From the NCBI GenBank assembly GCA_036268055.1, contig DATAUW010000017.1:434001-498000 (forward strand): 64,000 nucleotides of DNA, read 5' to 3'. This DNA is from Verrucomicrobiia bacterium (GTDB taxonomy: Bacteria > Verrucomicrobiota > Verrucomicrobiia > Limisphaerales > Pedosphaeraceae). Below the pieces are notes generated by a model, which saw only the letters and a program-made list of their open reading frames with translations, was not told the origin of the DNA and made no database searches. The translations under genes were made by a program, and so were the position numbers. Of the stretch, positions 1,011 to 56,878 are shown one piece after another. Each line of letters starts with the position of its first letter. The stretch's first letter is position 1.

Positions 1011-2377
1011 GATTTCGACTCGGCGTTTTTCCCCATCGGACGCACGGGACGCATTTTTGAATTCATGTTGATCAAATTGAGCCGGCGCTGGGCGGCAAAC
1101 GCCTGGGCGGAATGCGGAAATTCGTGGATCAATCGTTCCAAAGTTTTTTTGGCTTCCGGGCCTTCGCCAAACTGTTTTATTTGCCACGCAGCCAGAAGGG
1201 CAAGCCATTCGGCGACTTTACGCTCCGGCTGCTCCGGTATTCCCAGAAGCAATTCGACCTGCTCGATGGCGAGTTCGAATTTTTCGAGTTGGTCGGCAAA
1301 AAGTTTGGCGAGTTTCTCGCGGGCGGCGATGTCGTTGGGATCGGCGTTGAGTTTTTCAATCAGTTGATTGATCGAGGTCATCGCCGCTTCGCGCGTCTTG
1401 GCGCTGGCGTGCGGCGCATCCGGTTCATCAAGGCTGTCATTGAGCGCGGGCATGGCGATCTTTTGTGGTTTTGATTGCTCATCAAACTCGGCGCGCGATG
1501 CGGGAATTTGATTGATGCGCTGGCGCGCCATGAACGCCAGATGAGTTCCCGTAACACGCTCGCAAAGGTCTTCTAGCACCCGCCGCGCGGAAACGGGATC
1601 GCTGCCAAAATGCAAATACCAATCCGCCAACTTTTGAAGTGCCAGGGAAACTTGCGAAGGCGTGGTCGCCGAATCGCCGCAAATTTCGTAAATGGTTCTT
1701 TCGGCTTCCGACAAGTCGTGATATTGGCGCGCGTAAAGTTCGGCGAGCATCATCCAGCCATCAAAATCATTTTCAACTTTCTCCAATTCGCCGATGATCG
1801 CCATTTCCGCTTCCGCATATTTGCCGAATTTTATTTTGCCGATGGCGCGGGAGTAGGCAGGCGCGGGAACGCTCATATTCGCGGTGTTCAACAAATATTG
1901 AGTGAGTGGCCATGCCCAAAGCACCGCGCCGCAGCCGACACCGTACCAGCCGCTGACCGCCCAGAAGATCAACGCCAGCAGCAGCAGCACCGGCCCCCAC
2001 ACAATGAGCGCGATGATGAAGTCATCCGTATTTTTCGCGCGCTTGAACAGGCTGGTGAGAAACCAGCCGAAGCTCAGCGCGCCCCAATAAGAAACGATCG
2101 GCACCGCTGCGAACAAGGTTTGGAACACGAGAGCCTCGGCGTAAAAACCTTTTGCGCGCAGGTTCGCGACGAAGGGATTGAGCGGCGGGAGAAAAGGCAA
2201 TGGGCCCCAGTTTAACATCAGCCAGATTGCGACCGGCGCGCCAATGCCGCGCACGAACCAACCCAGGAACCAGCGGCGCGTATATTCCGCGGAGATTTCG
2301 TGAAACTCCCGGCAATAGAACGCCACCAGCGCCACGATGCCTCCCAACATCAGAGTTGTAATCAGGAGCAATGCCAT
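1007..2377 (-). CDS. TPR-repeat membrane protein
   Basis: A 456-residue protein with an N-terminal membrane segment, further hydrophobic segments at roughly residues 45-60, 85-110 and 120-160, and a long soluble C-terminal part with helical TPR-like repeats (for example the stretches around [19 protein letters not shown] and [12 protein letters not shown]). The middle, about residues 300-330, is acidic and low in complexity. It is the last gene of the minus-strand lipid run and starts 31 bp after the esterase gene. Proteins of this build, a membrane anchor plus TPR scaffold, are common in Verrucomicrobiota and have no defined role. A scaffold or assembly function is inference only. Confidence 0.7.
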
Positions 2378-2408
2378 TTCGACTTCCCGCGCGCGCGGGT
2401 GATTCTGC

Positions 2409-3299
2409 CTATCCGGTCTTGGGCGTCATCCCCAGGTGCGCTTGAAAAAATTTGTAAATTTCCATCGCGGGTTTGCGCGGCGCGATAATGCCATGTCCGC
2501 CGGGGACAATCGCCAGATGCGCCTCCACTCCCGCGTTGGTCAACGCGTCATACAATAGTTGACTCTGTGAAACTGGCACAAGTTTGTCCTGCGCGCCATG
2601 AAGAATATAAAATGGCGCCGAGTCCTTGGTCACATAACGAACCGGATTGGCCAGCGCGGCATTGGCAAGCTCGCTGTTCACCGGGCCGCCCAAAAATTTG
2701 GCCACGTCCGTATCCGGACTCACGCGCAGGCTTTCTTCCGTGACCAATTTGTCCAAATCCGTCGGCGGATAAAATGCGCACACCACTTGGACCTTGCTGG
2801 AATAATTTAAATTGCCGCCCACGTCGCCCTCCAATTCCTTCACCCCCGCCGTCGTGCCAAGCAGGGCCGCGAGATGCCCGCCGGCCGAAGCGCCGAACAC
2901 GCCGATGTGATCGGGATCGAGATCGTATTTATCGGCGTGCGCTCGCAGCCAGCGGATGACGCCCTTGCAGTCATAAATTTGCGCGGGATACGGAGCGACG
3001 CCACTCAAGCGGTAATTGATGCTGACAATCGCCAGATTTTGCGTTGCCATGAAACCGATGTAGCAGGGATCCTTGCTGCCCGATTTCCACGAACCGCCGT
3101 GGATCCACACCACCACCGGCAATTTTCCAATCGGTTGTTTCGGCGAATAGATGTCGAGCAAAAGCGAATTCGTGCCGACGCGGGCGTATTCAATATTCGC
3201 TTCGTGCTTTACCGAATCGGGCAAACGCGGAACGCAACCGGCCACCAGCGCCAGTGCGAATAGCATCAAAGCCAGCCGCGCGAAATATTTTTTAGCCAT
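2409..3299 (-). CDS. Alpha/beta hydrolase (esterase) lipoprotein
   Basis: A 296-residue hydrolase. The first 22 residues form a lipoprotein signal ending in the lipobox LVAGC, so the protein is probably lipid-anchored in the envelope. The fold markers are in order: the oxyanion HGGSW near residue 69, the nucleophile Ser in GASAGG, the acid Asp in HGAQDKLVP and the catalytic His in PGGHG near the C terminus. This is the carboxylesterase/BD-FAE-like group acting on acyl or acetyl esters; the exact substrate cannot be read from sequence. It follows the second CFA-like methyltransferase with a 59 bp gap on the same strand, so it may belong to the lipid operon. Confidence 0.85.
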   Translation of the reverse strand: MAKKYFARLALMLFALALVAGCVPRLPDSVKHEANIEYARVGTNSLLLDIYSPKQPIGKLPVVVWIHGGSWKSGSKDPCYIGFMATQNLAIVSINYRLSGVAPYPAQIYDCKGVIRWLRAHADKYDLDPDHIGVFGASAGGHLAALLGTTAGVKELEGDVGGNLNYSSKVQVVCAFYPPTDLDKLVTEESLRVSPDTDVAKFLGGPVNSELANAALANPVRYVTKDSAPFYILHGAQDKLVPVSQSQLLYDALTNAGVEAHLAIVPGGHGIIAPRKPAMEIYKFFQAHLGMTPKTG

Positions 3300-3358
3300 A
3301 TAATAAGTGCAACCGCCTTTCTTGAATTTCCAAAACCGCGGCCAAACGATGCGCGGTA

Positions 3359-4384
3359 TTATTTTTCAAATAAATAGTGAGAAACCAGCCACTCTTTACC
3401 GCCATTGTAACCCCATAATTCGGCGCAAGCCATGTAAAAGATGCGCCAGTAAGCCCACCACTTCGATTCCTGGTCCGCGCCGTAGGTTTCCGCAAAAATC
3501 GGGCGGATTTCGTCCTCGTTGCTGTCCATGTTGGTGAGCCACGCTTCGGCGGTTTTTTGATAATGCACGCCGCTGACGCGCCAGTGCTCGGCGATTTTCA
3601 AATCCTTTTGGAAATAGAGCAGCAGATCGTCGCTCGGCATGATGCCGCCGGTGAAAAAATATTTCGCCATCCAATCGGAATCGTCGCGCGCGATGAAATG
3701 ATAGGCAAAATCGCGATGCGTAAAGATATGAACAAATAATTTTCCATCCGGCTTCAGCCAGCGCGCGATGTTGCCCAGGAGCTTTTCGTAATTCTTCATG
3801 TGCTCGAACATCTCAACAGAAATCACGCGATCGAATTTTTCTTCGATGTCGAAACGATTCATGTCGCAGGTGAGGATGCGCAGGTTTTTCAGTCCGCGCC
3901 GTTTACATTCGGCATCAATGTGCAATTTTTGCGTCGCGGAATTCGAGACGCCGGTGATGCGGCTGTTGGGATAATTTTCTGCCAGCCACAACGACATCGA
4001 ACCCCAGCCGCAACCGAGTTCGAGCACGTCCTGGCCATCGGCGAAGCGGGCACGTTCGCAGGTAAGCTTGAGCATGGTTTCCTCGGCTTCGTCGAGCGTG
4101 TGGACACCGTCAGGATAATAAGCGCCGCTATATTTGAGGCGTTTGCCGAGACAGAGTTGATAGAAGCGCGTGGGGACTTCGTAATGTTGTTCGTTGGCGG
4201 CTTTGGTTTCGATGGCGATGGGACTGGATTTCAAATCCGCGATGAGCGCCAGCAGCCGCGCCTGCTGCGCCTCGACGCCGCCCTCGCTTTCTTCGCGCAG
4301 GCGTTCGGCAAGCAGGCGGCGAATGCCAACCCGGATCAAATAATCCGGAACCACGTCTTTTTCCAACAGAGCATCAAGCGCCAT
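3359..4384 (-). CDS. CFA-synthase-like SAM-dependent methyltransferase (second copy)
   Basis: A 341-residue class I methyltransferase of the cyclopropane-fatty-acyl-phospholipid synthase superfamily. The SAM-binding motif is LELGCGWGS, and the MFEHMKNY and HIFTHRDF segments match the branch that includes coclaurine N-methyltransferase-like proteins. The start is set at the ATG preceded by GGAG with 7 bases between, in place of a longer frame running into the upstream gene. It lies 26 bp after the DUF1295 gene. DUF1295 and this type of methyltransferase often sit side by side in bacterial genomes. The substrate is probably an unsaturated acyl chain or another lipid. Confidence 0.85.
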
Positions 4385-4410
4385 AAAACATCTCCAGTTT
4401 TGAATCCAAA

Positions 4411-5202
4411 TCAGCCTTTGCGAAACCACGGCACGAACGCGCTCGTGGTCTTTTGATATTGGCGATATTCATCGCCGCGATTTTTCACGGACAACTCCTC
4501 GGTCATCGGTATGCCGGTGACCTTGAGCAGAAAGAACAGCATGAGCGCGGGGCAATAAACGGTGATCCAACCCCACGGCGAACCGAGCGCGAAAATGAAA
4601 TAACCCATCCAGATCAACCACTCGAAAAAATAATTGGGATGCCGCGAGTAATGCCACAAGCCCGCCTGGCAGACATGGCCTTTGTTTTTTGGATCGGCCT
4701 TGAATTGCTTGAGCTGATGGTCGGACAAACTTTCGCCGCCGAGCGCAATCAACCAGACTGCGACCCCAACCATTTCAAACGCGGAAATTCCTGTGCGGGC
4801 ATTCATGCACGCCAGCAAAAATGGCACGGATAAAACGATCAGCAAAGCCGCTTGCACCTGAAAAAAGCCAAACATTTTTTGCGCTTCCTGCGCGCCCCAT
4901 TCCTCGCGCAGTTTGTGGTAACGCTCATCTTCCTTGGGATGCGAGTGTTTCACCCGAGCCGCGATATGCGCGGCCAGCCGCACCGACCAAAGTGTCGCCA
5001 TGCCGGCGATCAGCCAGCGCCGCGTAAGATCGCCATGCGAAAATGTCGCATAGAAAATAGCGACGGGCGCGAACCCAATGGACCACGCGACATCCACGAT
5101 CCCAGTATTTTTTATCCGGCGGCTGACGATAAAAGTCACCACCATGAACAACCCGGCAAACACCCAGCCGGTAAAAAATAATTTTAGAAACTCAGTCAGC
5201 AT
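4411..5202 (-). CDS. DUF1295 membrane protein, steroid 5-alpha-reductase-like
   Basis: A 263-residue membrane protein with about six hydrophobic segments. The C-terminal part has [19 protein letters not shown], the NAD(P)H/lipid-binding signature shared by DUF1295, isoprenylcysteine methyltransferases and steroid 5-alpha reductases. The start is placed at the ATG ([10 protein letters not shown]) because longer forms would lie inside the DUF2062 gene; even so the two genes overlap by 11 bp. The family is thought to reduce or modify lipid double bonds, and here it sits between two lipid methyltransferase genes. The reductase role is inference from family and context. Confidence 0.85.
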
Positions 5203-5707
5203 GCACAGGTTTGTTGAGGTTCGAAAGTTTCCGCATCGCCGGAAGCAAAATAAAATAAAGCGCCGCCGCAACGAACGGAGCGACCACCACCCAGCCGATA
5301 ATTCCATGCAAACCCGTCATGCCAAATTCCCGCATGAAATTGGCCGGCGATTCCTTGAATTTTTTCAACAGTTCGGGAATGGAAAACGGCACGCGCTGGG
5401 CGCGCGTGATCCATTCACCGATGCGCACATAAACCAGAATCGTCGAAAGCTGCACCGGATACATGAGCCAGTTGACGAGTTGGATGATAGGCTGATTGAG
5501 CTTGAGCGCGAAGGCAACCAGCCCGCACAGCAGGGTAGTGCTGCCCATGATGGGAAACATCGCCAGCGTCACGCCAAGGGCAATCGTAAGTGAAACTTTT
5601 TCCGGCGTGATGCCTTGTTTGAGTTGCCCAACGATAACATCCACAACCCGCCGCTGCCAGAATGACCTGGCGTCAGGAACTTTTGGTTCGGCGGTCGTCG
5701 CGGGCAT
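5192..5707 (-). CDS. DUF2062 domain membrane protein
   Basis: A 171-residue protein matching DUF2062: a short basic N terminus, then the conserved stretch GITPEKVSLTIALGV, TLAMFPIMGSTTLL, and paired hydrophobic helices with LNQPIIQLVNWLMYPVQL. The start is at MPATTAEPK; the frame is open further up but that part lies inside the CFA synthase gene. Function of the family is unknown. It is often found with lipid or glycan genes. It is 11 bp after the CFA synthase stop and overlaps the DUF1295 start, so co-transcription and translational coupling are likely. Confidence 0.8.
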   Translation of the reverse strand: MPATTAEPKVPDARSFWQRRVVDVIVGQLKQGITPEKVSLTIALGVTLAMFPIMGSTTLLCGLVAFALKLNQPIIQLVNWLMYPVQLSTILVYVRIGEWITRAQRVPFSIPELLKKFKESPANFMREFGMTGLHGIIGWVVVAPFVAAALYFILLPAMRKLSNLNKPVHAD

Positions 5708-5718
5708 GGCGTGAGCGA

Positions 5719-6993
5719 TTACATCAACGTGGCGTTGTTGGCGCGCGTGAAAATGGCCTGCACGACGCTGATGTTGCGCATCGCGAACGCCGCTTCGCAG
5801 TAACACAAATAATAATTCCATTTGCGGATGAAGCGTTCGTCGAAGCCAAGCTTGAGAACCTCTTCGCGGCGCTGATTGAAGGACGTATGCCAGCGCTTGA
5901 GCGTCTCGGCGTAGAACAATCCCATATCAGTGAGGTCGTGCATGAACATGCCGCCAGTGTGGCAGACAGCTTCATTCACGCGATTAATGGAAAGCAGGAG
6001 CGAGCCGGGAAAAATATGTTTCTGAATCCAATCCACATTTTTGCGCAGCGAGTCGTAACGCGCATCCGGGCACGTGATCATCTGCACTCCGAGCAGCCCA
6101 TCGCGTTTCAAAAGCCGCTGGCATTTGCCAAAATAAGTTTCGAGATAAGCGTCTCCAACGGCTTCGAGCATTTCAATGGACGCAATCTTATCAAACTGCC
6201 CTTCCAACAAACGATAATCCATCAACTTAATATCCACCCGGTCCGCGATGCCTTCGCGCTGAAACAATTCCCGCGCATATTTAAACTGCTCATCGGAAAT
6301 AGTAATAGTCGTCACGCGACAGCCATAATTTTTTACGGCGTGACGGCTGAACCCGCCCCAGCCGCTGCCGATTTCGAGAACATGTTCGCCGGGTTTGATG
6401 CGCAGCTTGCGGCAGAGCCGGTCATACTTGGCAGTCTGGGCCTCCGCAAGGCTTTGCCCCGGCGATTCAAAATACGCCGACGAATAAGTCATCGTGGAGT
6501 CGAGGAACAACTTATAAAATTCGTTGCCGAGATCGTAATGCTCCTGAATATTGCGCCGGCTGGTCGTGAGACTGTTGGGCCGGAGCAGGTGCAGCGCGCG
6601 ATTATATTTGCCCAGCAAATTGATGATAAATTTTTTGCTCTGCGACCCCGACATCGCTGGAGAATTTTCGACATTCAGCACAAACCACGAAATAACCTGC
6701 GTGATGTTGTCAGTGTCCCAATCCCCATCCACGTAAGCCTCGCCAAAACCAATGTCGCCGAACAACACGCAGCGTTTAAAAAAATCCCAGGTCAGAATGC
6801 GCACCTGCGCTTCAACCCTCGCGCCGGGCTGCCCGATAACGCGGCGCGAACCGTCGGGCAATTCAAGATGCAGGCAGCCAAGCGTCATGCGCTCAAGCGT
6901 TTGCATGATGATGCGCGCATAAAAAGGCAGCGGCATGCGCGCGGCAGAAGTCGCGATCGGCTGATTGAGCGTGGCGGTGGTGTGCTGGTTCAT
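5719..6993 (-). CDS. Cyclopropane-fatty-acyl-phospholipid synthase-type methyltransferase
   Basis: A 424-residue protein with the full two-domain build of CFA synthases: an N-terminal lipid-binding domain (about residues 25-140) and a SAM-binding domain (LEIGSGWGGF near residue 205). HYDLGNEFYKLFLD just before the methyltransferase core is diagnostic for the family. Two positions differ from E. coli Cfa: the MFEHVG segment reads MLEAVG, and the later catalytic His position reads Gln in VQMIT. Both are typical of the branch whose genes sit next to DUF1365 and FAD-oxidoreductase genes. It would transfer a methyl(ene) group from SAM to an unsaturated phospholipid acyl chain. Its start overlaps the DUF1365 stop by ATGA. 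Confidence 0.9.
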   Translation of the reverse strand: MNQHTTATLNQPIATSAARMPLPFYARIIMQTLERMTLGCLHLELPDGSRRVIGQPGARVEAQVRILTWDFFKRCVLFGDIGFGEAYVDGDWDTDNITQVISWFVLNVENSPAMSGSQSKKFIINLLGKYNRALHLLRPNSLTTSRRNIQEHYDLGNEFYKLFLDSTMTYSSAYFESPGQSLAEAQTAKYDRLCRKLRIKPGEHVLEIGSGWGGFSRHAVKNYGCRVTTITISDEQFKYARELFQREGIADRVDIKLMDYRLLEGQFDKIASIEMLEAVGDAYLETYFGKCQRLLKRDGLLGVQMITCPDARYDSLRKNVDWIQKHIFPGSLLLSINRVNEAVCHTGGMFMHDLTDMGLFYAETLKRWHTSFNQRREEVLKLGFDERFIRKWNYYLCYCEAAFAMRNISVVQAIFTRANNATLM

Positions 6994-7790
6994 TTGGCTC
7001 TCCCGGTTAAGGTTGGGTGCGGATTCAAGACGTCAGACTGCATCGCTGGATTTTCGGCTTTGCGATAGAACGGAATTTTTTTCAAGTAAAGCAACAGCGC
7101 GTGCCAGTGGATGAGAAAAATCACCTTGAGCGTGACCAGCGGGTATTTCACCGTGAACCACGCGAGCCGCGCGTTCGTCAACTCCGCGCGCTTGCCCGCA
7201 AGCGTGCTCAACAAAACCCGGTCCGCGCCATCGCGATCATCAATATGAATTTCCAAATTGTCGCCAGGAATTTTCAATTTGAAATCAAAGCTGAGATCAA
7301 GGCTTGAAAACGGCGAAACATAAAAAAGTTTTGTGGTAATTTTGCGGAACGTGCCTTTCGCATCCAACTCCGCGCCGCGAAGGAGAAAAAGTTTCTTTTC
7401 GCGAAATGTATTACCAACTTCCGCGACTGCACAAACCGGCGCGCCCGCAGTATCAAAACAAAAATAAAATGAAACCGGATTGAAAATATAGCCAAGTGTG
7501 CGCGGCAAAGTGAGAAGCATGATACGGCCATTAGGATCGAACTCGATACCGTTGCGGGAAAGATAATCGAGCACGCTTTGCCGAATAGGACCGGCGCTTT
7601 GCGGCATGTGATCGGCGTCGCGGAATTCGTAAAGGTTGCGGCGATTGCGGCTAAAGAAAAATATTTTTTTCGCCACGTGATCCACCTCGTTCAGGTCGAG
7701 ATAGAACATGAAAATAGTGTGATTGAAATAATGCTCCTTGGGCGCGAGGCGATGGTGCATCACCGAACATTCATAAAGGCAGGAGTTCAC
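6990..7790 (-). CDS. DUF1365 domain protein
   Basis: A 266-residue DUF1365 protein. The N terminus (NSCLYEC-VMHHRLAPKEHYF, FMFYLDLNE) and the central LTLPRTLGYIFNPVSFYFCF are family hallmarks. The start is the GTG at 7788-7790, because AAGGAG lies 7 bases upstream; the longer open frame runs inside the FAD oxidoreductase gene and is not needed. The start overlaps the stop of the upstream gene and the stop overlaps the next start, so three genes are coupled. DUF1365 has no proven activity, but it is strongly linked with CFA synthase and the FAD oxidoreductase, so a role in acyl-chain modification is the best guess. Confidence 0.88.
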   Translation of the reverse strand: MNSCLYECSVMHHRLAPKEHYFNHTIFMFYLDLNEVDHVAKKIFFFSRNRRNLYEFRDADHMPQSAGPIRQSVLDYLSRNGIEFDPNGRIMLLTLPRTLGYIFNPVSFYFCFDTAGAPVCAVAEVGNTFREKKLFLLRGAELDAKGTFRKITTKLFYVSPFSSLDLSFDFKLKIPGDNLEIHIDDRDGADRVLLSTLAGKRAELTNARLAWFTVKYPLVTLKVIFLIHWHALLLYLKKIPFYRKAENPAMQSDVLNPHPTLTGRAK

Positions 7791-9052
7791 GACCACACTC
7801 CTTGGGCGAGCAGACGCGACAGATCGAGCGACGACGTGAAGGCGTCCTCGTGGAAACCGTAGCGAAAATAACTGCCGCAAAAAAATGTATTGCTCATGCG
7901 CTGATTGAGCCGCGGCAATTCCGATTGCGCGCGAATCGCACCCAGGCTGAACACCGGGTGATCGTATGAGATACGCTTGAGCACACGATCTGGATGAATC
8001 TTTTCCGCCCCATTGATGGAAACGAAATAATTCTGCTTTTGAGAAACGCCTTGGAGGCTGTTCATCCAATAAATCGTCGAAGGTGAAACCCCTCCATCCG
8101 CGTTTTTATCAATGCGATAATTCCACGACGCCCAGCACATTTTGGTTTTGGGCATCACGCTCGCGTCGGTGTGAAGGGTCGCGATGTTTGGTTGATATTT
8201 GAATTCGCCCAACACGGCGCGTTCCTGCGCATCGGCATCGGAGAGCAGTTGCAACGCTTCGTCAGCGTGGCAGGCGAAGATAACTTTGTCGTACGTTTCT
8301 GAACGGCCATCGCGCGAAATGATTTTCACCTTGCCGCCTTCGCGGACGACCTTCGCTGCGCCGCTTTGCAACTTCAAACGATCGCGAAAAGGCGCGGTGA
8401 TTTTTTGCACGTAAGATTTTGCGCCGTTGACGACCGTGAGCCACGGGTGCTGCGTGTGCAGGCCGAGAAAACCATGATTGTGAAAAAAGCGCAGCAACGT
8501 CATCGCGGGAAACTCGAGCATCAAATCAGGCGGCGTGGACCAGACGGCAGCGCTCATCGGGACGAGATAAAGATGCAGAAAATCGTCGCCATATTTGCGC
8601 GTGCGGACGTAATCGCCGACGTTCATCGCGGCGTATTCGGATTGATTGAGCGCGGCGACGGCTTCCTCGTTGAAACGATTTATTTGCCGGATCATCCGCC
8701 AGAAGCGCGGGCTGAAAAGATTGCGGCGCTGGGCGAAAAGGTGGTTCAGGCTGGTGCCGCAGAACTCGAGGCCGGAAGACAAATGTTGCACGCTGAAGGA
8801 CATCGAAGTGGGTTTTACGGCCACGTTCAATTCCCGAAATAGGCGGGTCAGGTTCGGATAAGTGACTTCGTTATACACCATGAAACCGGTGTCAATCGGC
8901 ACGGCGATATTGCCTTCGTTGACCGTAATCGTGTTCGTATGGCCGCCGGCGTAATCATTTTTTTCGTAAAGCGACAGGTCGTAATGCGGATGCAAAAAAT
9001 ACGCGCAACCCAGCCCGGCAATGCCTGTCCCGATGATCGCAAGCTTCGTCAC
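7787..9052 (-). CDS. FAD-dependent oxidoreductase of the amine-oxidase fold
   Basis: A 421-residue protein. The N terminus holds the dinucleotide-binding motif IIGTGIAGLGCAYFL, followed by YEKNDYAGGHTNT, the second ADP-binding strand of the NAD(P)/FAD amine-oxidase superfamily. The C terminus (NTFFCGSYFRYGFHEDAF) carries the flavin-binding closing motif. This is the protein usually found next to DUF1365 and CFA synthase in bacterial singlet-oxygen or stationary-phase lipid operons. A desaturating or oxidising action on acyl chains is inferred, not shown. The gene begins 5 bp after the desaturase stop and overlaps the DUF1365 start. Confidence 0.88.
   Translation of the reverse strand: MTKLAIIGTGIAGLGCAYFLHPHYDLSLYEKNDYAGGHTNTITVNEGNIAVPIDTGFMVYNEVTYPNLTRLFRELNVAVKPTSMSFSVQHLSSGLEFCGTSLNHLFAQRRNLFSPRFWRMIRQINRFNEEAVAALNQSEYAAMNVGDYVRTRKYGDDFLHLYLVPMSAAVWSTPPDLMLEFPAMTLLRFFHNHGFLGLHTQHPWLTVVNGAKSYVQKITAPFRDRLKLQSGAAKVVREGGKVKIISRDGRSETYDKVIFACHADEALQLLSDADAQERAVLGEFKYQPNIATLHTDASVMPKTKMCWASWNYRIDKNADGGVSPSTIYWMNSLQGVSQKQNYFVSINGAEKIHPDRVLKRISYDHPVFSLGAIRAQSELPRLNQRMSNTFFCGSYFRYGFHEDAFTSSLDLSRLLAQGVWS
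7798..7803 (-). promoter_or_regulatory. Ribosome binding site deciding the DUF1365 start
   Basis: On the minus strand AAGGAG is followed by 7 bases and then GTG at 7788-7790. Another GTG at 7794-7796 is only 1 base away, too close to be used. The site lies inside the last codons of the FAD oxidoreductase gene. Confidence 0.6.
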
Positions 9053-9057
9053 AACCG

Positions 9058-10047
9058 TCAGGCACGGTGATTGGCCACGGACGCGGAACTATTCGGTTTC
9101 AACGCCGGTGCCTGATACGCCGAGATCGGCACGGGCTTCAAGTTCCAAATGATGCCCGTCCAGGAAATCGCCTTGAGCACGTAATAAGAAATATCCACTT
9201 CCCACCAATAGAAACCCTGGCGCGTGGAACTCATGTAGCGATGGTGATTATTGTGCCAGCCTTCGCCGAGCGTGATGAGCGCGAGGATCAAACTGTTGCG
9301 GCTGTTGTCGCTGGTTTCGTAGCGGCGTTTGCCGAGGAGATGCGCGAGGGAATTAATGGAAGACGTGGCGTGGAACAAGGCGGTCGTGCTGATAAAAAAG
9401 CCCCAGACCAAAAGCTGGTTGCCGGTCACACCGAGGCTCGGCTTGAAGACGTAGAGCAGATGGCCAACAAACGCGAGCAGCACCGCGAGCACGATGGGAA
9501 CGAGTGAGTCGAAGCGATTGAGGAAAACGAGTTCGGGATATTTTGCAAGGTCGCGGACCTGATTGTAATCGGTGGGAAAGTTGCGCGCGCTCGTGATCCA
9601 GCCGATGTGCGACCACCAGAACCCGCGCTGGTTCGGTGAATGAACATCGCATTCTTCGTCGGAGTGCTGATGATGATGACGGTGTTGATACGCCCACCAA
9701 AGCGGCCCGCGCTGGACAGCGGAAGCGCCCACCAGAGCGAAGAGGAATTGAACCAGCCGCGAGGTATGAAAAGTTTTGTGCGAAAAATAGCGGTGATAAA
9801 ATCCGGTGATGGCGAACATGCGCGCGAGGTATAAACCGATGGCCACGCAAACGGAAATCCAACTCCAATGAACCCAGATGACGCCGAGACAACCGAGATG
9901 CAAAATGACGAAGGGGATGGTCCGCACCCATTCCACGCGATCCGGTTTCGCCTTGATCGCGGCGGTATCTTCGTTTCCAAAATCGGAGTCCACCCACTGG
10001 ACCACGGAAATAAAGCTCGCCTTAAAAAATGGTTTTAAACGGTCCAT
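9058..10047 (-). CDS. Membrane acyl-CoA/acyl-lipid desaturase
   Basis: A 329-residue integral membrane desaturase of the stearoyl-CoA delta-9 type. The three histidine boxes that bind the di-iron centre are visible: HRYFSH, HRHHH in WWAYQHRHHHQHSDEE, and HNNHH in GEGWHNNHHRY. Four hydrophobic segments separate them. It would insert a double bond into a saturated acyl chain using O2 and electrons from a ferredoxin/cytochrome partner. As the first gene of the run it would make the unsaturated substrate needed by the two downstream CFA-type methyltransferases. A promoter is seen about 95 bp upstream. Confidence 0.92.
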   Translation of the reverse strand: MDRLKPFFKASFISVVQWVDSDFGNEDTAAIKAKPDRVEWVRTIPFVILHLGCLGVIWVHWSWISVCVAIGLYLARMFAITGFYHRYFSHKTFHTSRLVQFLFALVGASAVQRGPLWWAYQHRHHHQHSDEECDVHSPNQRGFWWSHIGWITSARNFPTDYNQVRDLAKYPELVFLNRFDSLVPIVLAVLLAFVGHLLYVFKPSLGVTGNQLLVWGFFISTTALFHATSSINSLAHLLGKRRYETSDNSRNSLILALITLGEGWHNNHHRYMSSTRQGFYWWEVDISYYVLKAISWTGIIWNLKPVPISAYQAPALKPNSSASVANHRA

Positions 10048-10308: not shown

Positions 10309-11769
10309 TTAAAGCTGTTTTGGCGGGACTTGCCAGGTGCCGCCGAGGGATTTGATCAAAGCCACGGTCGTGACCAGTTGATCACCGTGAAGGCGGACAG
10401 CGGTGCGTTGGAGATCGAGCGCGGCGTTTTCCGCCGTGGCCACTTCGAGATAAGTCACCAAGCCGGCGCGGTAACGGTTGTTGGCGATGTCCAAAGTCTT
10501 TTCGGCAGATTGAAGTGCGGCGGCTTCAGCTTCGTTTTCCACAGCAAGCAAGCGCTGGCCGGCGAGGTTGTCTTCCACTTCGGCAAAGGCATTCAAAACA
10601 TTTTGACGATATTGCGCGACAACTTCGTCATAGACCGCTTGAGTCCGTTTTAATTCCGCGCGCAACTGTCCGCCTTCAAAAAGTGGAAACGTCACCGATG
10701 GGCCGAACGCCCAGATATGACTCGGCCAATCGAACGCCGTGCCCGCGCTGACACTTTGGTAACCCGCCAGCCCGCTCAACTGGATGCGCGGATAAAATGC
10801 CGCTTTCGCCACACCGATATTCGCGTTCGCCGAAGCCATGCGCCGTTCCGCCGAAGCGATGTCTGGACGGCGTTCGAGCAATTCCGAAGGCACACCGGCA
10901 GGCAAAATCGGCGGAGCGAGAGTCAGGGTTTTCTCCGGCAAATCAAACGAGGAAGCCGGACGGCCGGTAAGAACCGCCAAGGCATGTTCCACTTTCGTGC
11001 GTTCAAGCAAGGTCACAGGCAACTGCGCCTCGGTTGTTTTCAAAACCGTTTCCGCCTGTGCAACATCGAGGTCGGTCGCCACACCGCCCGCACGGCGATT
11101 GCGTGTGAGGTCGTACGATTTTTGAAACACCTCGACACTCGAGCGCAACAACGCCAACTCGGCATCCAGCGCGCGCAGCGTAAAATAATCCGTGGCCAAT
11201 TCCGCCTGGATGGAAAGCCGCGTGGCTTCGACATCGTCCGCGCTGGCTTGCGCCGCCGTGCGCGCGGCTTCCACCGTGCGCCGCACGCGTCCCCACACAT
11301 CCACTTCGTAGCTGGCATCCAGCGGCACAGTGAAATTGTTGTAAGTGTCCGGCAGACCATTGGAGATGCCGTTGATCGGGCGATTCGCGGAATCGCGTTC
11401 GCGTGTGTAGGAAGGCGCGAAGGCCACGTGCGGAAAAAGCCCCGACCGATTGATGTCCACGAACGCGCGCGCCTGCTCGAAGACCGCGACGGCTGCCTTC
11501 AAATCCTGGTTGGAAGTTGCGGCGTCCGCTTCGAGCCCATTTAACTGGGCGTCCTGAAAAATTTCCCACCACTTGCCCTTGGGAAGATTCGCGCGCGGCT
11601 CCGCGATTTTCCATTCGTTGGTGCCGAAAGAATTCGTGTCGCTGGCGTAAGCCGGGGGAACTGCCGCCGAAGGACGTTTGTAATCCGGTCCCACCGCGCA
11701 ACCCGCCAAACCCACGATCAATGCCGTCGCTGCCAGCGCGCCGGCCCGCCTGCCGTCATTGCTGTTCAT
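10309..11769 (-). CDS. RND efflux outer-membrane lipoprotein (NodT/OprM family)
   Basis: A 486-residue outer-membrane factor. The signal ends in the lipobox LAGC, followed by AVGPDYKRPSA, the standard N terminus of the NodT family. Two tandem TolC-like halves follow; LDVAQAETVLKTTEAQLP and LLERRPDIASAERRMASANANIGVAKAAFYPRIQLSG are highly conserved family segments. It would form the trimeric export duct for the two genes upstream. Its start overlaps the adaptor stop by 4 bp. No clear terminator is seen after it. Confidence 0.93.
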   Translation of the reverse strand: MNSNDGRRAGALAATALIVGLAGCAVGPDYKRPSAAVPPAYASDTNSFGTNEWKIAEPRANLPKGKWWEIFQDAQLNGLEADAATSNQDLKAAVAVFEQARAFVDINRSGLFPHVAFAPSYTRERDSANRPINGISNGLPDTYNNFTVPLDASYEVDVWGRVRRTVEAARTAAQASADDVEATRLSIQAELATDYFTLRALDAELALLRSSVEVFQKSYDLTRNRRAGGVATDLDVAQAETVLKTTEAQLPVTLLERTKVEHALAVLTGRPASSFDLPEKTLTLAPPILPAGVPSELLERRPDIASAERRMASANANIGVAKAAFYPRIQLSGLAGYQSVSAGTAFDWPSHIWAFGPSVTFPLFEGGQLRAELKRTQAVYDEVVAQYRQNVLNAFAEVEDNLAGQRLLAVENEAEAAALQSAEKTLDIANNRYRAGLVTYLEVATAENAALDLQRTAVRLHGDQLVTTVALIKSLGGTWQVPPKQL

Positions 11770-12983
11770 TGCGCCTTTTCCGCCACGGGTGTTTCCGCCA
11801 CGCGCACGGTGATGCCGGAAGTCAACGAGTCCACGGGGTTGATGATGATTTTGTCCTGCGCCGTGATGCCAGAAACAATTTCAACCGTTTTGCCAAAATC
11901 GCGGCCGATGCCCACGTTGCGCAATTCCACTTTGTTGTTCGCGCCGACGACGCCGACTTGCATCGCATCGCGAAAGAGCAGGGTGTTCGCGGGCAGCACC
12001 AGCGACGGCGCTTGTTTCACGTCAGGAAAACTGACTTCGGCGTAACTGCCGGCGAAGATTTCGTTCTTCGGATTGTTCACTTCGAGTTCGACGAGCAGCG
12101 TGCGCGAGGAGGCATCAATGGCCCCGGCGGTGCGAACCACTTTGGCGGTGAAGGTGCGGCCCGGCAATTCCGGCACGGTCAATTCCGCGTCCACGCCGGT
12201 GGCGATTCCAGGGGTGGCCGATTGCGGCACGCGAACGAACACGCGCAATTTGCTGGTCTCGGCGAGGCGAAACAATTCCTTGCCCGGCATGATAAGATCG
12301 CCGACGTCAATATCACGGGTGGTGATGGTTCCGTTGAACGGCGCGGTGACGTGGCTGAAAGATTGCAAATCCGCGAGCCGTTCCACATTGGCCTTGGCGG
12401 TGTCCACGGCGGCGATCTTGAGTTTCAAGTCGCCCTGTTTCTCGGCGTCTTCCTGCGCGCTCACGCTGGAAGTCTTCATTAATTCCGTCCAGCGATCGGC
12501 GGTGATCTGCGCGAGCGACTCGGCCGCCTGGGCCTGCACGAGTTCAGCCCGCGCGCCGGTCAACTGCTGATCCAACTCCGGCGTGTCAATATCCGCCAGC
12601 AATTTGCCCGCTTCAACCGCCGTGCCAATGTCCACGTACCAATGTTTCACGTAGCCATTGGCGCGCGCGTAAATCGGCGCGGCCACGAACGCCTGGACTT
12701 CGGCGGGAAGCTTAAGCGTGGACACAGCGGCACCCGGCGCGGCTGAGACAACCTGCACCGTCGGCGTGGCCAGTTCCACGGTTTCCTTGGCCAGCGCTTG
12801 CGTGTGCAGCCAGCGTGGGACGAGCCCGGCGACGACCAGCGCCAATAATAAAATGATGATGCCGATCATCCAGCGGCCAAGTTTTGGCGAAGACGATGGC
12901 GAATGCGCGGTGCGGTCACCATTCGACGGGGCGGGCAGGGGTGATTCCATGACAGGAGTTGCTTTGCGTTCCAGTGAGTTCAT
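11766..12983 (-). CDS. RND efflux periplasmic adaptor (membrane fusion protein)
   Basis: A 405-residue HlyD/AcrA-type adaptor. It has one N-terminal membrane anchor (about residues 35-60), a lipoyl half motif (VKHWYVDIGTAVEAGKLLADID), a helical hairpin, and the second lipoyl half VTAPFNGTITTRDIDVGDLI, then the beta-barrel domain. It bridges pump and outer-membrane duct. The gene lies 5 bp after the pump gene and overlaps the duct gene. No signal lipobox is seen, so it is anchored by its membrane segment. Confidence 0.93.
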   Translation of the reverse strand: MNSLERKATPVMESPLPAPSNGDRTAHSPSSSPKLGRWMIGIIILLLALVVAGLVPRWLHTQALAKETVELATPTVQVVSAAPGAAVSTLKLPAEVQAFVAAPIYARANGYVKHWYVDIGTAVEAGKLLADIDTPELDQQLTGARAELVQAQAAESLAQITADRWTELMKTSSVSAQEDAEKQGDLKLKIAAVDTAKANVERLADLQSFSHVTAPFNGTITTRDIDVGDLIMPGKELFRLAETSKLRVFVRVPQSATPGIATGVDAELTVPELPGRTFTAKVVRTAGAIDASSRTLLVELEVNNPKNEIFAGSYAEVSFPDVKQAPSLVLPANTLLFRDAMQVGVVGANNKVELRNVGIGRDFGKTVEIVSGITAQDKIIINPVDSLTSGITVRVAETPVAEKAQ

Positions 12984-12988
12984 TTAGT

Positions 12989-15900
12989 TTATGCAGAAAG
13001 AGGTTCGGCGTGTGGCAGCGCTTCGCCGTTCGGGCTGGTGACGGGTTGTTTCTTGTGGCGGTGGACCAGGCTGAAAACAACCGGCACGAAAAACAAGGTG
13101 GCAATCGTGGCCACGAACAAACCGCCGATGACCGCTCGGCCAAGCGGCGCATTTTGCTCGCCGCCTTCGCCAAGGCCAAGGCTCATGGGCAGCATGCCGA
13201 TGACCATCGCGAGCGCGGTCATGATGACGGGGCGCAGGCGGCCCGCGCCGGCGGTGAGCGCGGCTTGCACCGGGCTCATGCCCTGATCCAGATTATTTCG
13301 CGCGAACGTCACCACGAGCACGGCGTTGGCGGTGGCGACGCCGAGGCACATGATGGCGCCCATCAATGCGGGAACGCTCATCGTCGTGAAGGTGAGGAAC
13401 AATCCCCAGATAACGCCCGCCAGCGCGCCGGGCAATGCGCAAATGATGATGAACGGATCCAGCCAGCTTTGGAAATTCACCACCAGCAACAAATAGACCA
13501 GTCCGATCGCGCCGACCAAACCGACGCCCAGTCCGACGAAACTTGAGTGCATCGTCTCCGCCGCGCCGCGCAAAATTAATTGGCTGCCGCGCGGCAAACT
13601 CTTGCGCGTCTGGTCGAGCAGCGGTTGAAGGTCGCGCAATACGCCGCCCAAATCACGCCCACTCACGCCGCCGAAAATATCCACGACCGGCACGGCGTTG
13701 TAATGCGAGAATACGGGAGAATCATTTGTGCGTGTCATGGTGGCGACATTTGCCAGCACTTGTTCGCCTTTGCCACTGCCGCTGACGGGCAAAGAGTTTA
13801 GCGCGGTGAGAGAATTGAGCACCCGTTCCGGCGCGCGGGCATTGATCAAATATTGAATGCCATAGACGGTGTTCAGCCAGTAAGCGGGCGTGACCTGGCC
13901 GCTGCCGCTGACGGCCAGCAGCACCGCGTTCGCCACGTCGCCTTCCGAAAGGCCGATCTCCTGGGCCTTGGTGCGGTCAATGTCAAAGCGCAACTTGGGC
14001 AAGTCGCCGGGTTGCTGGATGCGGATGTCCACCGCTCCGGGAATCTTGCGCATTTTTTCGGCAAGGTCGGCGGCAATCTGCCGGCTCTTGGCGCGGTCCC
14101 AGCCGGTGATCTGCACATTCAACGGCGCGGGAATGCCGAAGCTCAACGTCTGGCTGACGATGTCTGCCGGAAGGAAATAAAACATCGTGCCGGGAAATTC
14201 GTCGTTCAGGTCATGCCGCAATTTTTCCACATAGCCATCGGTGGAATGATGATGACCCTGTTTCAAGGAAATCAGGATGTCGGAATCGCCCGCGCCGATG
14301 AGGCCGTTATTGCTGTAACTAAGCGCGATGGAGGAGTTGGGAATGCCGATGTTGTCGAGCATGCCGACCAGTTCATCCTTGGGAATGACTTTGCGGATGG
14401 CATCTTCGATGTCCGCCACGAGGCTGGCCGTTTCTTCGACGCGGGTTCCCGTGCGTGCTCGCAAGTGCAAACGAATTTGCCCAGCATCCACGTTCGGGAA
14501 AAAGTCCTGACCGAGAAACGGAACCAGCAAACCGGACGCAATGCACAATGCCAAAAACAAAATCATGAAACCCACGCGCCGCTCAAAGATCGCCTCGAGC
14601 AGGCTGCGATAACCTTGCTGAAAACGTGCATACCCGCGCTCGAAGCGGTCCTGAATGACCATGAACGGACGCTTCCACCCGGGTGCGTCTTCGACATGAT
14701 CGCCGTGCTGGGTATGATGTTCGTAATAGGAAAAATTCCGGTAGAAATACATCACCAGCGTCGGAATCAGCGTGCGGGAGAGAACGTAACTCGCAAGCAT
14801 CGCGAAAACCACCGCCTCGGCCAGCGGCACGAACAGATAGCGGCCCACGCCCGTGAGGAAAAACATCGGCACGAACACGATGCAAATACAAAGTGTGGAG
14901 ACGAAAGCCGGCAGCGCAATTTCCTGCGCGCCGTCAAGGATGGCCTGTTGCAGCGGCTTGCCGAGCGACATCTGGCGATGCACATTTTCGATTTCCACCG
15001 TGGCGTCGTCCACGAGAATACCCACCGCAAGCGCCAAACCGCCGAGGGTCATCAGATTGATCGTTTCACCGAGCGCGCCGAGGATGATCAGTGAACTGAT
15101 GACCGAAAGCGGAATCGAGAGCGCTATGATGAACGTGCTGCGCCACGAGCCGATGAACAATAGAATCATGACCGCCGTCAAGGCAGCGGCGACAATGCCT
15201 TCCTTCATCACGCCGCTGATGGCCGCGCGCACGAAGAGCGATTGATCGGCAAATTCCTGCACGTCCAGACCGAGTGGAAGCGTCTTCAACATAGTTGGCA
15301 TGGTCGCCTTGATACCCTTCACCACGTCGAGGGTTGAAGCAGACCCATTCTTGAGAATCGTCAGCAACGCGCCGCGCACACCATCCATGTGAACGATATT
15401 TTGTTGCGGGGCAAAACCGTCGCGCACGTGGGCGACGTCATGGATATAGATCGTTGCGCCATTCACCGTCTTGATCGGCAGGTCATTCAGTTCGTCCAGT
15501 TGGCGCGTGGTGGAATTCAATTCGATGTCATATTCCGTCGGCCCGATTTTCGCGGTGCCACTGGGCAGAATCAAATTCTGCGCGCTGATGGCATTAACGA
15601 CATCCTGCGGCGAAAGCCCCTTCGACTTGAGCGCGGACAAATCCAAGTCCACCGAAACCTGCCGCGCACGACCGCCATACGGCCAGGGAATCGCCGCGCC
15701 GCGAACCGTGGACAAACCGACGCGCACCTGGTTCTGCGTCATGTCGTAAAGTTCCTGCTCGGAAAGTGTCTTGCTGGTGATGCTGTATTGCAGGATTGGC
15801 ACAGTCGAGGCGTTATAGCGAATGATCAGTGGCGGCGTGGCGCCCGGCGGCATCTGCTTGAGAATGGTTTGCGCGACGGCGGTGATTTGCGCGACGCCGG

Positions 15901-16210
15901 CATCCACGGACGAACCCGGCTGCAAAAAGACCTTGATGATGCCCACGCCGTTGTAGGAAGTGGATTCGACGTGTTCGATGTCATTGACCGTCGTGGTCAG
16001 CGTGCGCTCGTGATTGTAGATGATGCGCTTTTCAATTTCGCCGGCGTCGAGGCCGACGTATTGCCAGATGATGCTGACGACCGGGATATCAATCGCGGGG
16101 AAAATATCGGTGGGCGTGCGCAACAACACGAACGGGGTCAGCAACACCAGGACCAATGCTGCCACCACAAACGTATAAGGCCGCCGCAAGGCTAATCGGA
16201 CAATCCACAT
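12989..16210 (-). CDS. RND efflux pump, inner-membrane permease
   Basis: A 1073-residue RND permease with twelve membrane segments and two periplasmic porter domains (AcrB/MdtB-like hydrophobic-efflux class). The TM4 proton-relay pair is present as GILVDDATVE near residue 400. In TM10 the segment aligned to the AcrB AKNAIL motif reads ATANAV, so the relay lysine (Lys940 in AcrB) is replaced by a non-charged residue. The substrate cannot be read from sequence. It is the first gene of a three-gene operon, divergent from a LysR gene that probably controls it. Confidence 0.93.
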   Translation of the reverse strand: MWIVRLALRRPYTFVVAALVLVLLTPFVLLRTPTDIFPAIDIPVVSIIWQYVGLDAGEIEKRIIYNHERTLTTTVNDIEHVESTSYNGVGIIKVFLQPGSSVDAGVAQITAVAQTILKQMPPGATPPLIIRYNASTVPILQYSITSKTLSEQELYDMTQNQVRVGLSTVRGAAIPWPYGGRARQVSVDLDLSALKSKGLSPQDVVNAISAQNLILPSGTAKIGPTEYDIELNSTTRQLDELNDLPIKTVNGATIYIHDVAHVRDGFAPQQNIVHMDGVRGALLTILKNGSASTLDVVKGIKATMPTMLKTLPLGLDVQEFADQSLFVRAAISGVMKEGIVAAALTAVMILLFIGSWRSTFIIALSIPLSVISSLIILGALGETINLMTLGGLALAVGILVDDATVEIENVHRQMSLGKPLQQAILDGAQEIALPAFVSTLCICIVFVPMFFLTGVGRYLFVPLAEAVVFAMLASYVLSRTLIPTLVMYFYRNFSYYEHHTQHGDHVEDAPGWKRPFMVIQDRFERGYARFQQGYRSLLEAIFERRVGFMILFLALCIASGLLVPFLGQDFFPNVDAGQIRLHLRARTGTRVEETASLVADIEDAIRKVIPKDELVGMLDNIGIPNSSIALSYSNNGLIGAGDSDILISLKQGHHHSTDGYVEKLRHDLNDEFPGTMFYFLPADIVSQTLSFGIPAPLNVQITGWDRAKSRQIAADLAEKMRKIPGAVDIRIQQPGDLPKLRFDIDRTKAQEIGLSEGDVANAVLLAVSGSGQVTPAYWLNTVYGIQYLINARAPERVLNSLTALNSLPVSGSGKGEQVLANVATMTRTNDSPVFSHYNAVPVVDIFGGVSGRDLGGVLRDLQPLLDQTRKSLPRGSQLILRGAAETMHSSFVGLGVGLVGAIGLVYLLLVVNFQSWLDPFIIICALPGALAGVIWGLFLTFTTMSVPALMGAIMCLGVATANAVLVVTFARNNLDQGMSPVQAALTAGAGRLRPVIMTALAMVIGMLPMSLGLGEGGEQNAPLGRAVIGGLFVATIATLFFVPVVFSLVHRHKKQPVTSPNGEALPHAEPLSA

Positions 16211-45800: not shown

Positions 45801-46138
45801 GAAATATTTCGTTGGCAGGCAAGTGTGTGAGTTTTGGTTCCAAGTGAGAAGTTCTTTCGTCCCTGACCGGGACTTATCCTGGAAACGGATTTCAACCCAG
45901 CAATAAATTGCTGGGCTAAGATCGGTCGTCCCTGCGGGACTGCGGCGGCAAGGCAGTCTGAACGAAAATGAAACCGTTGAAACGGTTGAAGACCTCGCGG
46001 CAAAAAAATTCCCCGCGTTAAAACGCGGGGTTAATGAGAAGTTTTCGGTTATTAGTCTTGTCTTGATAGACGCCGAAAAGAAAAGGGGCCTTCCAATTCT
46101 ACAGTTGTGCGTTATTCGACGCGAGGCGCTCTTATTTT
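45801..46138. other. Convergent intergenic region with repeat family D
   Basis: The 338 bp gap lies between two convergent genes and is largely filled by the ~188 bp repeat at 45851-46038. The remainder shows nothing else. Confidence 0.6.
45851..46038 (+). repeat. Structured dispersed repeat family D, copy 1
   Basis: A ~188 bp element with ordered hairpins: GTCCC/GGGAC, CCCAGC/GCTGGG around an A+T loop, then GTCCCTGCGGGAC, and at the end CCCCGCGTT/AACGCGGGG (46011-46030). It aligns along its length with copy 2 at 56691-56878. It sits in a convergent gap. Confidence 0.75.
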
Positions 46139-56690: not shown

Positions 56691-56878
56691 ATTCTTTCGT
56701 CCCTTACGGGACTTGGATTGTAACGAGCGCAAACCCAGCCATAAATGGCTGGGCTAAGATCGGTCGTCCCTGCGGGACTGCGGCGAGGCTGCGTGCGCCG
56801 CCCACTATATCTTTCGTTCCCGCGATTTGGTAGAGGCAAAAAAATGCCGCGCGGACGAATCTCGCGCGGTAAGTGAAA
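56691..56878 (+). repeat. Structured dispersed repeat family D, copy 2
   Basis: A ~188 bp element, equal in length and layout to copy 1 (45851-46038). The shared segment from the CCCAGC hairpin through GTCCCTGCGGGACTGCGGCG is almost unchanged. The last hairpin is CCGCGCG/CGCGCGG (56847-56869). It fills the gap between two convergent genes (sensor-like protein and PFK), as copy 1 does. Confidence 0.75.

Follow-up and report, generated by a model that had tools for sequence, protein, structure and literature searches.

The question raised by a compact gene cluster of a Verrucomicrobiia bacterium (family Pedosphaeraceae) is which modified acyl chain its enzymes would produce. The cluster lies within a 64,000-nucleotide stretch of DNA (GenBank assembly GCA_036268055.1, contig DATAUW010000017.1, forward-strand positions 434,001 to 498,000), hereafter referred to as the window, and encodes a desaturase, an FAD protein, a DUF1365 protein, two S-adenosylmethionine (SAM) methyltransferases, a DUF2062 protein and a DUF1295 protein. 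A first-pass annotation had regarded it as one acyl-chain modification operon, the product of which could be a methyl-branched, cyclopropane or furan fatty acid. The description as a single operon was upheld, given seven collinear, tightly packed minus-strand genes for which each family name was backed by a Pfam profile search, and furan was rightly named among the options, in that the encoded families match those of UfaD, UfaO and UfaM together with a FufM-like protein. The choice of three products was nevertheless too loose, the evidence favouring a dimethyl furan over the other two. Judged from its sequence, the cluster reads best as an operon of the furan type rather than the cyclopropane type, and we consider it probable (roughly 0.76) that it encodes the complete pathway to a dimethyl furan fatty acid. 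Gene identity, gene order, conservation, co-occurrence and the predicted fold of the DUF1295 protein were computed in this analysis.

The seven genes run from position 10047 to position 3359 of the window, with spacings of -11 to +26 bp once their start positions were refined. They are given below with a possible eighth gene, each with the E-values of its supporting matches.

9058 to 10047, minus strand: stearoyl-CoA-type (delta-9) acyl desaturase, 329 aa (PF00487, 1.9e-19)
7787 to 9052, minus strand: UfaD-like FAD protein, 421 aa, GTG start (PF01593, 5.2e-16; PF13450, 7.8e-13)
6990 to 7790, minus strand: UfaO-like DUF1365 protein, 266 aa, GTG start (PF07103, 1.6e-73)
5719 to 6993, minus strand: UfaM-like SAM methyltransferase of the cyclopropane fatty acid synthase (CFA) family, 424 aa (PF02353, CMAS, 1e-86)
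5192 to 5707, minus strand: DUF2062 protein, 171 aa (PF09835, 6.3e-17)
4411 to 5202, minus strand: DUF1295 membrane protein, 263 aa (PF06966, 5.6e-72; Steroid_dh, 3.7e-10)
3359 to 4384, minus strand: FufM-like SAM methyltransferase, 341 aa (CMAS Pfam family, 3.7e-43; solved structure 6gkv, 3e-88)
2409 to 3299, minus strand: BD-FAE alpha/beta hydrolase, possible eighth gene (PF20434, 6.1e-64)

The desaturase and FAD protein genes are separated by 5 bp; the latter overlaps the DUF1365 gene by 4 bp (GTGA), as does the DUF1365 gene the CFA-like gene (ATGA). The CFA-like and DUF2062 genes are 11 bp apart, the DUF2062 and DUF1295 genes overlap by 11 bp, and a gap of 26 bp precedes the FufM-like gene. 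The genome as a whole comprises approximately 5.1 Mb in 41 contigs and is 96% complete.

By protein family, the middle of the operon is the known UfaD-UfaO-UfaM triple, with the families PF01593/PF13450, PF07103 and PF02353 of the furan module encoded in direct succession according to the profile search. The reactions of UfaM, UfaD, UfaO and FufM have been demonstrated in Rhodobacter and Rhodopseudomonas (PMC7380195), where the CFA-like UfaM, the flavoprotein UfaD and the DUF1365 protein UfaO act on phospholipids to form a monomethyl furan fatty acid, the ring oxygen of which derives from O2. In R. palustris, the same work reported this set to be both required for the monomethyl furan and sufficient to make it, and it described UfaD as bearing an NAD/FAD domain and having phytoene dehydrogenases as relatives, and UfaO as the carrier of DUF1365 (PMC7380195). 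By family resemblance, the FAD protein of the window would be a methyl-branched acyl desaturase, and the DUF1365 protein a putative O2-dependent furan-ring former.

UfaO and UfaM were encoded in a single open reading frame, an apparent fusion, in three of three genomes (L181, L182 and L184) that had been picked for their long frames. Open frames of 1129 and 1179 aa around DUF1365 (in G095 and G113) were considered as candidate UfaD-UfaO-UfaM triple fusions and rejected, as the flavoprotein is encoded in a different frame and only UfaO and UfaM have one in common. A structure was also predicted for UfaO (pLDDT 94.6) from an alignment of 46 of 52 UfaO proteins plus that of the window. Sequence searches up to an E-value of 10 retrieved no solved relative, and fold comparison yielded no clear match, the best being the spirocyclase OlmO at a Z-score of 6.7, within the range of common arrangements, followed by fatty-acid-binding-like and nitrobindin barrels.

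The flavoprotein also bears on whether the operon could instead be of the 10-methyl branched type (Bfa/Tms), in which it would reduce a methylene chain, a reading that we regard as highly improbable. The protein of the window matches the amine-oxidase family (PF01593/PF13450), and BfaA belongs, we presume, to a distinct FAD-binding family. Both systems share the general layout, a CFA homologue next to an FAD protein, but the available text on the two-gene pathway mentions no DUF1365 protein (PMC7791843).

More directly opposed to a furan product would be an ordinary cyclopropane operon, in which the first methyltransferase is the CFA synthase of the genome and the flavoprotein, the DUF1365 protein and the second methyltransferase tailor or regulate it. 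The closest solved relative of the UfaM-like protein was indeed the CFA of Escherichia coli (8.4e-56), the NCBIfam CFA models ranked first, though below their cut-offs, and the genome has no other strong CMAS match apart from the FufM-like gene (292.5 bits for the UfaM-like gene and 148.8 for the FufM-like one, with two others at 27.7 and 21.6 bits). Against this, at three columns where three CFA structures keep G, H and H, all 57 of the UfaM-like proteins compared (from fufM-bearing loci, the window included) carry E, A and Q. We take these columns to be G236, H240 and H266 of E. coli CFA, which would make the changes G236 to E, H240 to A and H266 to Q. At the five columns of the bicarbonate site, presumably C139, E239, H266, I268 and Y317 of E. 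coli CFA, the protein of the window has S, E, Q, I and Y and departs from the canonical CFA pattern, including S in place of C139. Furthermore, an E. coli control matched CMAS and not DUF1365, and the gene set here is tightly coupled with a FufM-like gene. The UfaM-like enzyme is, by these residues, not a textbook CFA synthase, and a cyclopropane operon appears unlikely, even though the authors who described a similar Stenotrophomonas cluster interpret it in this way (PMC11832516).

A dimethyl product would depend on the last gene of the operon. The annotation of two CFA-type methyltransferases stands insofar as the second also has the fold of the CMAS family in Pfam, but this protein belongs to the coclaurine N-methyltransferase (CNMT) branch: its nearest solved relative is the CNMT 6gkv (E 3e-88, 43.0% identity), it is 38.7% identical to the plant pavine N-methyltransferase 5kn4, and it matched E. 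coli CFA (6bqc) only at 1.4e-29. Its identity to the UfaM-like protein of the window is 23.7%. Its closest named loci were those of metagenome-assembled genomes from an uncultured member of Verrucomicrobia subdivision 3 (77% identity) and an uncultured Pedosphaera (72%). The Arabidopsis protein AT4G33110 (FUFM1) is, we assume, CNMT-like, and we likewise take FufM and FUFM1 to fall within the CNMT branch. FufM of R. palustris (RPA0924) adds the second methyl to the furan (PMC7380195), and is 37.9% identical to AT4G33110, which was named FUFM1 (PMC10940516). By this kinship the FufM-like protein would be a furan-ring C-methylase.

The same kinship could be read otherwise, in that the operon might combine two co-inherited modules, UfaD-UfaO-UfaM making a monomethyl furan, and the DUF1295 protein with the second methyltransferase modifying some other molecule, such as an amine. 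Plant coclaurine and pavine N-methyltransferases methylate an alkaloid nitrogen, and as the nearest solved relatives of the last gene they favour this alternative. So does the retention of their E/E/H residues, which we take to be at CNMT positions 204, 207 and 208: in the aligned columns, every one of the 148 bacterial relatives has both E residues, and 143, including the protein of the window, have the H. A tree rooted on UfaM separates the two plant proteins (6gkv and 5kn4) from the bacterial ones, each group making up a branch of its own, and the bacterial gene, unlike those of the plant enzymes that it resembles in sequence, is coupled to lipid genes. FufM itself has been reported as a furan methylase, and its Arabidopsis relative belongs to the same family.

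Further evidence on this point came from co-occurrence. Among 387 Verrucomicrobiota genomes, a FufM-like gene was present in 73 (46 genera, with the genome of the window among them) and DUF1365 in 89; DUF1365 was found in all 73 of the FufM-like genomes, compared with 16 of the 314 others. The two genes lay within 8 kb of each other in 55 of the 73, farther apart on the same contig in five and on different contigs in 13, some of which may be assembly breaks. The 18 genomes in which they are not within 8 kb could be taken to favour two modules, but they also indicate that the coupling is not simply hitch-hiking within an operon. Among 398 Pseudomonadota genomes, 33 carried a FufM-like gene and 151 DUF1365, the latter being present in 30 of the 33 (versus 121 of the other 365). 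That the genes act on different substrates, which the first-pass annotation had given as grounds for abandoning its reading, is thus opposed by the 73 of 73 dependence in Verrucomicrobiota, and we consider two separate modules quite unlikely.

Gene order was examined in 80 named loci, with the five-gene core defined as ufaD, ufaO, ufaM, DUF1295 and fufM on the same strand and within 10 kb of fufM. The core was found in 43 of the 80 loci, across several phyla, though many loci were cut by contig ends; it was present in 27 of the 40 that had at least 8 kb on either side. By phylum, assigned by hand from record titles, these 40 comprised 18 Verrucomicrobiota (11 with the core), 18 Bacteroidota (15), two Pseudomonadota (none) and two others (one). 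Given this recurrence across several phyla, the arrangement is beyond chance. DUF1295 and fufM shared a strand and lay no more than 400 bp apart in 67 of the 80 named loci, as well as in 29 of 30 Verrucomicrobiota and 21 of 30 Pseudomonadota loci of a phylum sample, which consisted of the best-scoring 30 of 73 and 30 of 33 respectively. Within this sample, L121 is the window itself and L151 originates from the same genome as L056. Separately, L035 was excluded from neighbour clustering as a duplicate of L042. In the close pairs DUF1295 lay upstream of fufM, except in three, where it was on the other side.

Other members of the cluster were less constant. DUF2062 was encoded in 14 of 20 Verrucomicrobiota loci with the full core and in none of 19 from Bacteroidota, and is hence a variable member of the operon; an Acinetobacter plasmid has the order desaturase, FAD protein, DUF1365, CFA, DUF1295 and methyltransferase, which is that of the window minus DUF2062. 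DUF1475 was a frequent neighbour (43 of 80 named loci) that was not seen in the operon of the window. Many Bacteroidota loci instead had the order DUF1295-fufM-(hydrolase)-ufaD-ufaO-ufaM. Nine loci of this phylum (L046, L052, L059, L060, L065, L067, L072, L094 and L096) encoded a transporter beyond ufaM on the opposite strand, of the MFS_2 type according to a Pfam scan of one of the nine.

Several observations weigh against the dimethyl furan reading. Orthology to the proven proteins of R. palustris and R. sphaeroides rests on family membership together with published identities. Plant cyclopropane synthases carry the same UfaM-type motif and yet make cyclopropanes, so that the motif alone cannot decide the product. 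In 13 of the 80 named loci no DUF1295 gene lay within 400 bp of fufM: two had it farther upstream, one was interrupted by a contig end and ten had none in the stretch examined. Three of the 33 Pseudomonadota genomes had a FufM-like gene and no DUF1365, all of them in one five-member clade (support 0.997); this clade, with DUF1365 missing in three of its five genomes, may have another substrate and lends some weight to the two-module alternative. A set of 26 named genomes was selected because DUF1365 was missing next to fufM; 21 of them carried it elsewhere and five, for which completeness was not given, showed none. The genome of the window (96% complete) had no match to the ChrR cupin (PF12973), and in Stenotrophomonas the sigma-Ec/ChrR system left singlet-oxygen tolerance unaffected (PMC11832516).

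As a separate observation, the members of the above Pseudomonadota clade (L179, L180, L189, L190 and L191) had no DUF1295 or Ufa neighbours in the stretches examined.

The DUF1295 protein was modelled from an alignment of 60 of 65 DUF1295 proteins plus that of the window, giving a predicted structure with a pLDDT of 96.5. The closest folds were those of delta-14 sterol reductase (4quv; Z 15.3, root mean square deviation 3.9 over 237 aligned residues), the steroid 5-alpha-reductase PbSRD5A (7c83; Z 14.8, 3.5 over 203) and steroid 5-alpha-reductase 2 (7bw1; Z 13.8, 3.6 over 194). ICMT methyltransferases and the plant protein AtTam46 followed at Z-scores of 12.4 to 11.2, led by 5vg9 (ICMT; Z 12.4, 5.7 over 184), and all remaining matches, from the eighth onwards, had Z-scores of 5.3 and less. 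These values are to be read with the caveat that helical models may reach a Z-score of about 14 through arrangement alone, and Foldseek returned no match reaching an E-value of 0.001 (best 4quv, at 2.4e-3), which weakens the case for a reductase fold. Nonetheless, the Steroid_dh match in Pfam (3.7e-10) supports it independently of the fold comparison, and from the model a reductase is favoured over a carboxyl methyltransferase. The latter was considered, as part of a cycle of ICMT and esterase, because ICMT is the next-best fold and BD-FAE hydrolases occur in some clusters; it was ranked below the reductase. Reductases and ICMT, with NADPH and SAM as their respective cofactors, have this fold in common.

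DUF1295 was retained beside FufM from Verrucomicrobiota to Pseudomonadota. Its closeness to fufM, together with a modelled fold nearest to steroid and sterol reductases, suggests that it is probably an unrecognised partner of FufM in the furan pathway. A bolder proposal, which we regard as doubtful, is that DUF1295 is a fifth enzyme of the pathway, reducing the C=C bond of the ene-dione left after singlet oxygen has consumed the furan; the operon would then both make a scavenger and disarm its waste, and the algal and bacterial gene sets would represent one shared oxidant-defence lipid module.

A dimethyl furan pathway at this locus would begin with the desaturase placing a cis double bond, probably at delta-9, on a membrane phospholipid chain. 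The UfaM-like enzyme would add a methyl from SAM beside this bond and shift it, the UfaD-like flavoprotein would introduce another double bond in conjugation with the first, the UfaO-like DUF1365 protein would close the furan ring using O2, and the FufM-like enzyme would put the second methyl on the ring, with DUF1295, in all likelihood a membrane reductase, as its partner. With a delta-9 substrate the furans would have a seven-carbon acid arm, and thus be 7D5 (from 16:1) or 7D7 (from 18:1), not 9D5 (from cis-vaccenate). For this organism we infer that the reactions are those demonstrated elsewhere, and likewise the chain used and the roles of the desaturase, DUF1295, DUF2062 and the hydrolase.

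The desaturase carries the histidine boxes HRYFSH, HRHHH and HNNHH, and the only two solved relatives found were the acyl-CoA desaturases 4ymk (5.1e-30) and 4zyo (1.1e-25). An anaerobic supply of the double bond was considered and rejected, the best FabA match in the genome scoring 32.2 bits against a cut-off of 238.15. Since no FabA above the cut-off was found, the double bond is probably supplied by the operon desaturase or by a second desaturase encoded on contig C21 of the same genome.

The BD-FAE hydrolase gene starts 59 bp downstream of the FufM-like gene and, by eye, its product has a lipoprotein-like N-terminus. Members of the family were encoded near fufM, in the same orientation, in 11 of 28 Bacteroidota and one of 41 Verrucomicrobiota named loci, and one also occurs in a cluster on a Mesorhizobium terrae plasmid. 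The hydrolase could serve to free furan fatty acids from lipids. The hairpin following fufM showed no better folding than shuffled sequences (z -0.44), and the hydrolase gene may or may not be part of the transcript.

The strand of the operon also carries, upstream of it (window positions 10309 to 16210), a gene for an outer-membrane efflux protein of the NodT type, beside a periplasmic adaptor and an RND pump that were assigned by eye from the open reading frames. Elsewhere in the window, two matches to the Acido-Lenti-1 RNA scored above the gathering score (45896 to 45941 and 56734 to 56779).

The first-pass annotation had further linked the FAD-DUF1365-CFA set to singlet oxygen responses, a link that is sound for proteobacteria but does not carry over as it stands, because a singlet-oxygen role is unproven in a genome with no match to the ChrR cupin. 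Promoter-like sites (7, compared with 5.0 in shuffled sequences) and terminator-like sites (12, compared with 13.1) were at shuffle level. On plasmids of Ensifer adhaerens and M. terrae, the DUF1295 and FufM-like genes come after those for a sigma factor and an anti-sigma-E factor of the ChrR family, with an intervening alpha/beta hydrolase in M. terrae. Elsewhere, at L043 (positions 2336 to 3792), genes for an extracytoplasmic function (ECF) sigma factor and an RskA-type anti-sigma factor lie immediately ahead of a related operon and point away from it. It is possible that such an ECF/RskA-type pair acts as the regulator where ChrR is missing.

Furan fatty acids have been reported from some plants, fish and microbes, and the dimethyl forms are oxidant-trapping lipids. 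The pathway itself has been described before, and a cluster resembling this one has been published for Stenotrophomonas under another reading; what is new is the all-in-one operon in Verrucomicrobiota, the coupling of FufM with DUF1365 and the pairing with DUF1295. Among the literature matches listed, outside of which most subscription journals fall, there was no report of furan fatty acids in Verrucomicrobiota, nor a paper placing DUF1295 in the furan pathway, and the earlier remark that the phylum has been little studied for such lipids was borne out. If the dimethyl furan reading is true, the ability to make dimethyl forms extends to part of the Verrucomicrobiota (73 of 387 sampled genomes with both markers) and to some Bacteroidota, and clusters annotated as cyclopropane synthesis, that of Stenotrophomonas included, need to be read again. 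Further questions are raised as to the function of DUF1295 and a common origin of plant alkaloid N-methyltransferases and furan lipid methylases, and the one-operon form would be a handy cassette for producing the lipid in a laboratory host.

Besides the plant N-methyltransferases, three known systems can be compared with that of the window. In the alga Chlamydomonas, CFA1, CFA2/CPLD27 (the latter also listed as a coclaurine N-methyltransferase), DUF1365 and DUF1295 genes require SAK1 for their induction by singlet oxygen, and DUF2177, fasciclin-like and SOUL heme-binding genes are likewise SAK1-dependent (PMC4067076). This set shares the families of the window by annotation, though in a eukaryote with scattered genes, and the word furan does not occur in that paper. 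On the M. terrae plasmid (L199), fasciclin, DUF2177, heme-binding and MsrP genes were seen beside the sigma-E/ChrR, Ufa and FufM genes, a set that resembles the Chlamydomonas one by annotation only.

The cluster smlt2375 to smlt2367 ('Cfa9') of Stenotrophomonas maltophilia is a gene-for-gene match to the order of the window, by annotation and location only: a desaturase, an FAD protein, a cytosolic hypothetical protein, CfaS2, two inner-membrane hypothetical proteins and CfaS1 (PMC11832516). Its nine genes include, beyond those of the window, genes for a periplasmic protein and a lipocalin. It is under the control of sigma-Ec/ChrR and was upregulated 165- to 697-fold in a chrR mutant (one RNA-seq run), and its deletion reverted the menadione (MD) tolerance and ceftazidime (CAZ) susceptibility of that mutant; the authors interpret it as CFA synthesis by two CFA synthases, and their paper has no occurrence of the word furan (PMC11832516).

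The pathway of Rhodobacter sphaeroides and R. palustris employs the same four families, UfaM, UfaD, UfaO and FufM (PMC7380195), and the divergence of its two methyltransferases is comparable, RPA0924 being 26% identical to UfaM where the corresponding pair of the window is 23.7% identical. That paper does not contain the term DUF1295; RPA0923, which is numbered next to fufM, was deleted in the study (PMC7380195). By locus number, ufaM lies apart from ufaDO in R. sphaeroides and fufM from ufaDOM in R. palustris; the window, unlike either, unites all four with a desaturase and DUF1295 in a single operon.

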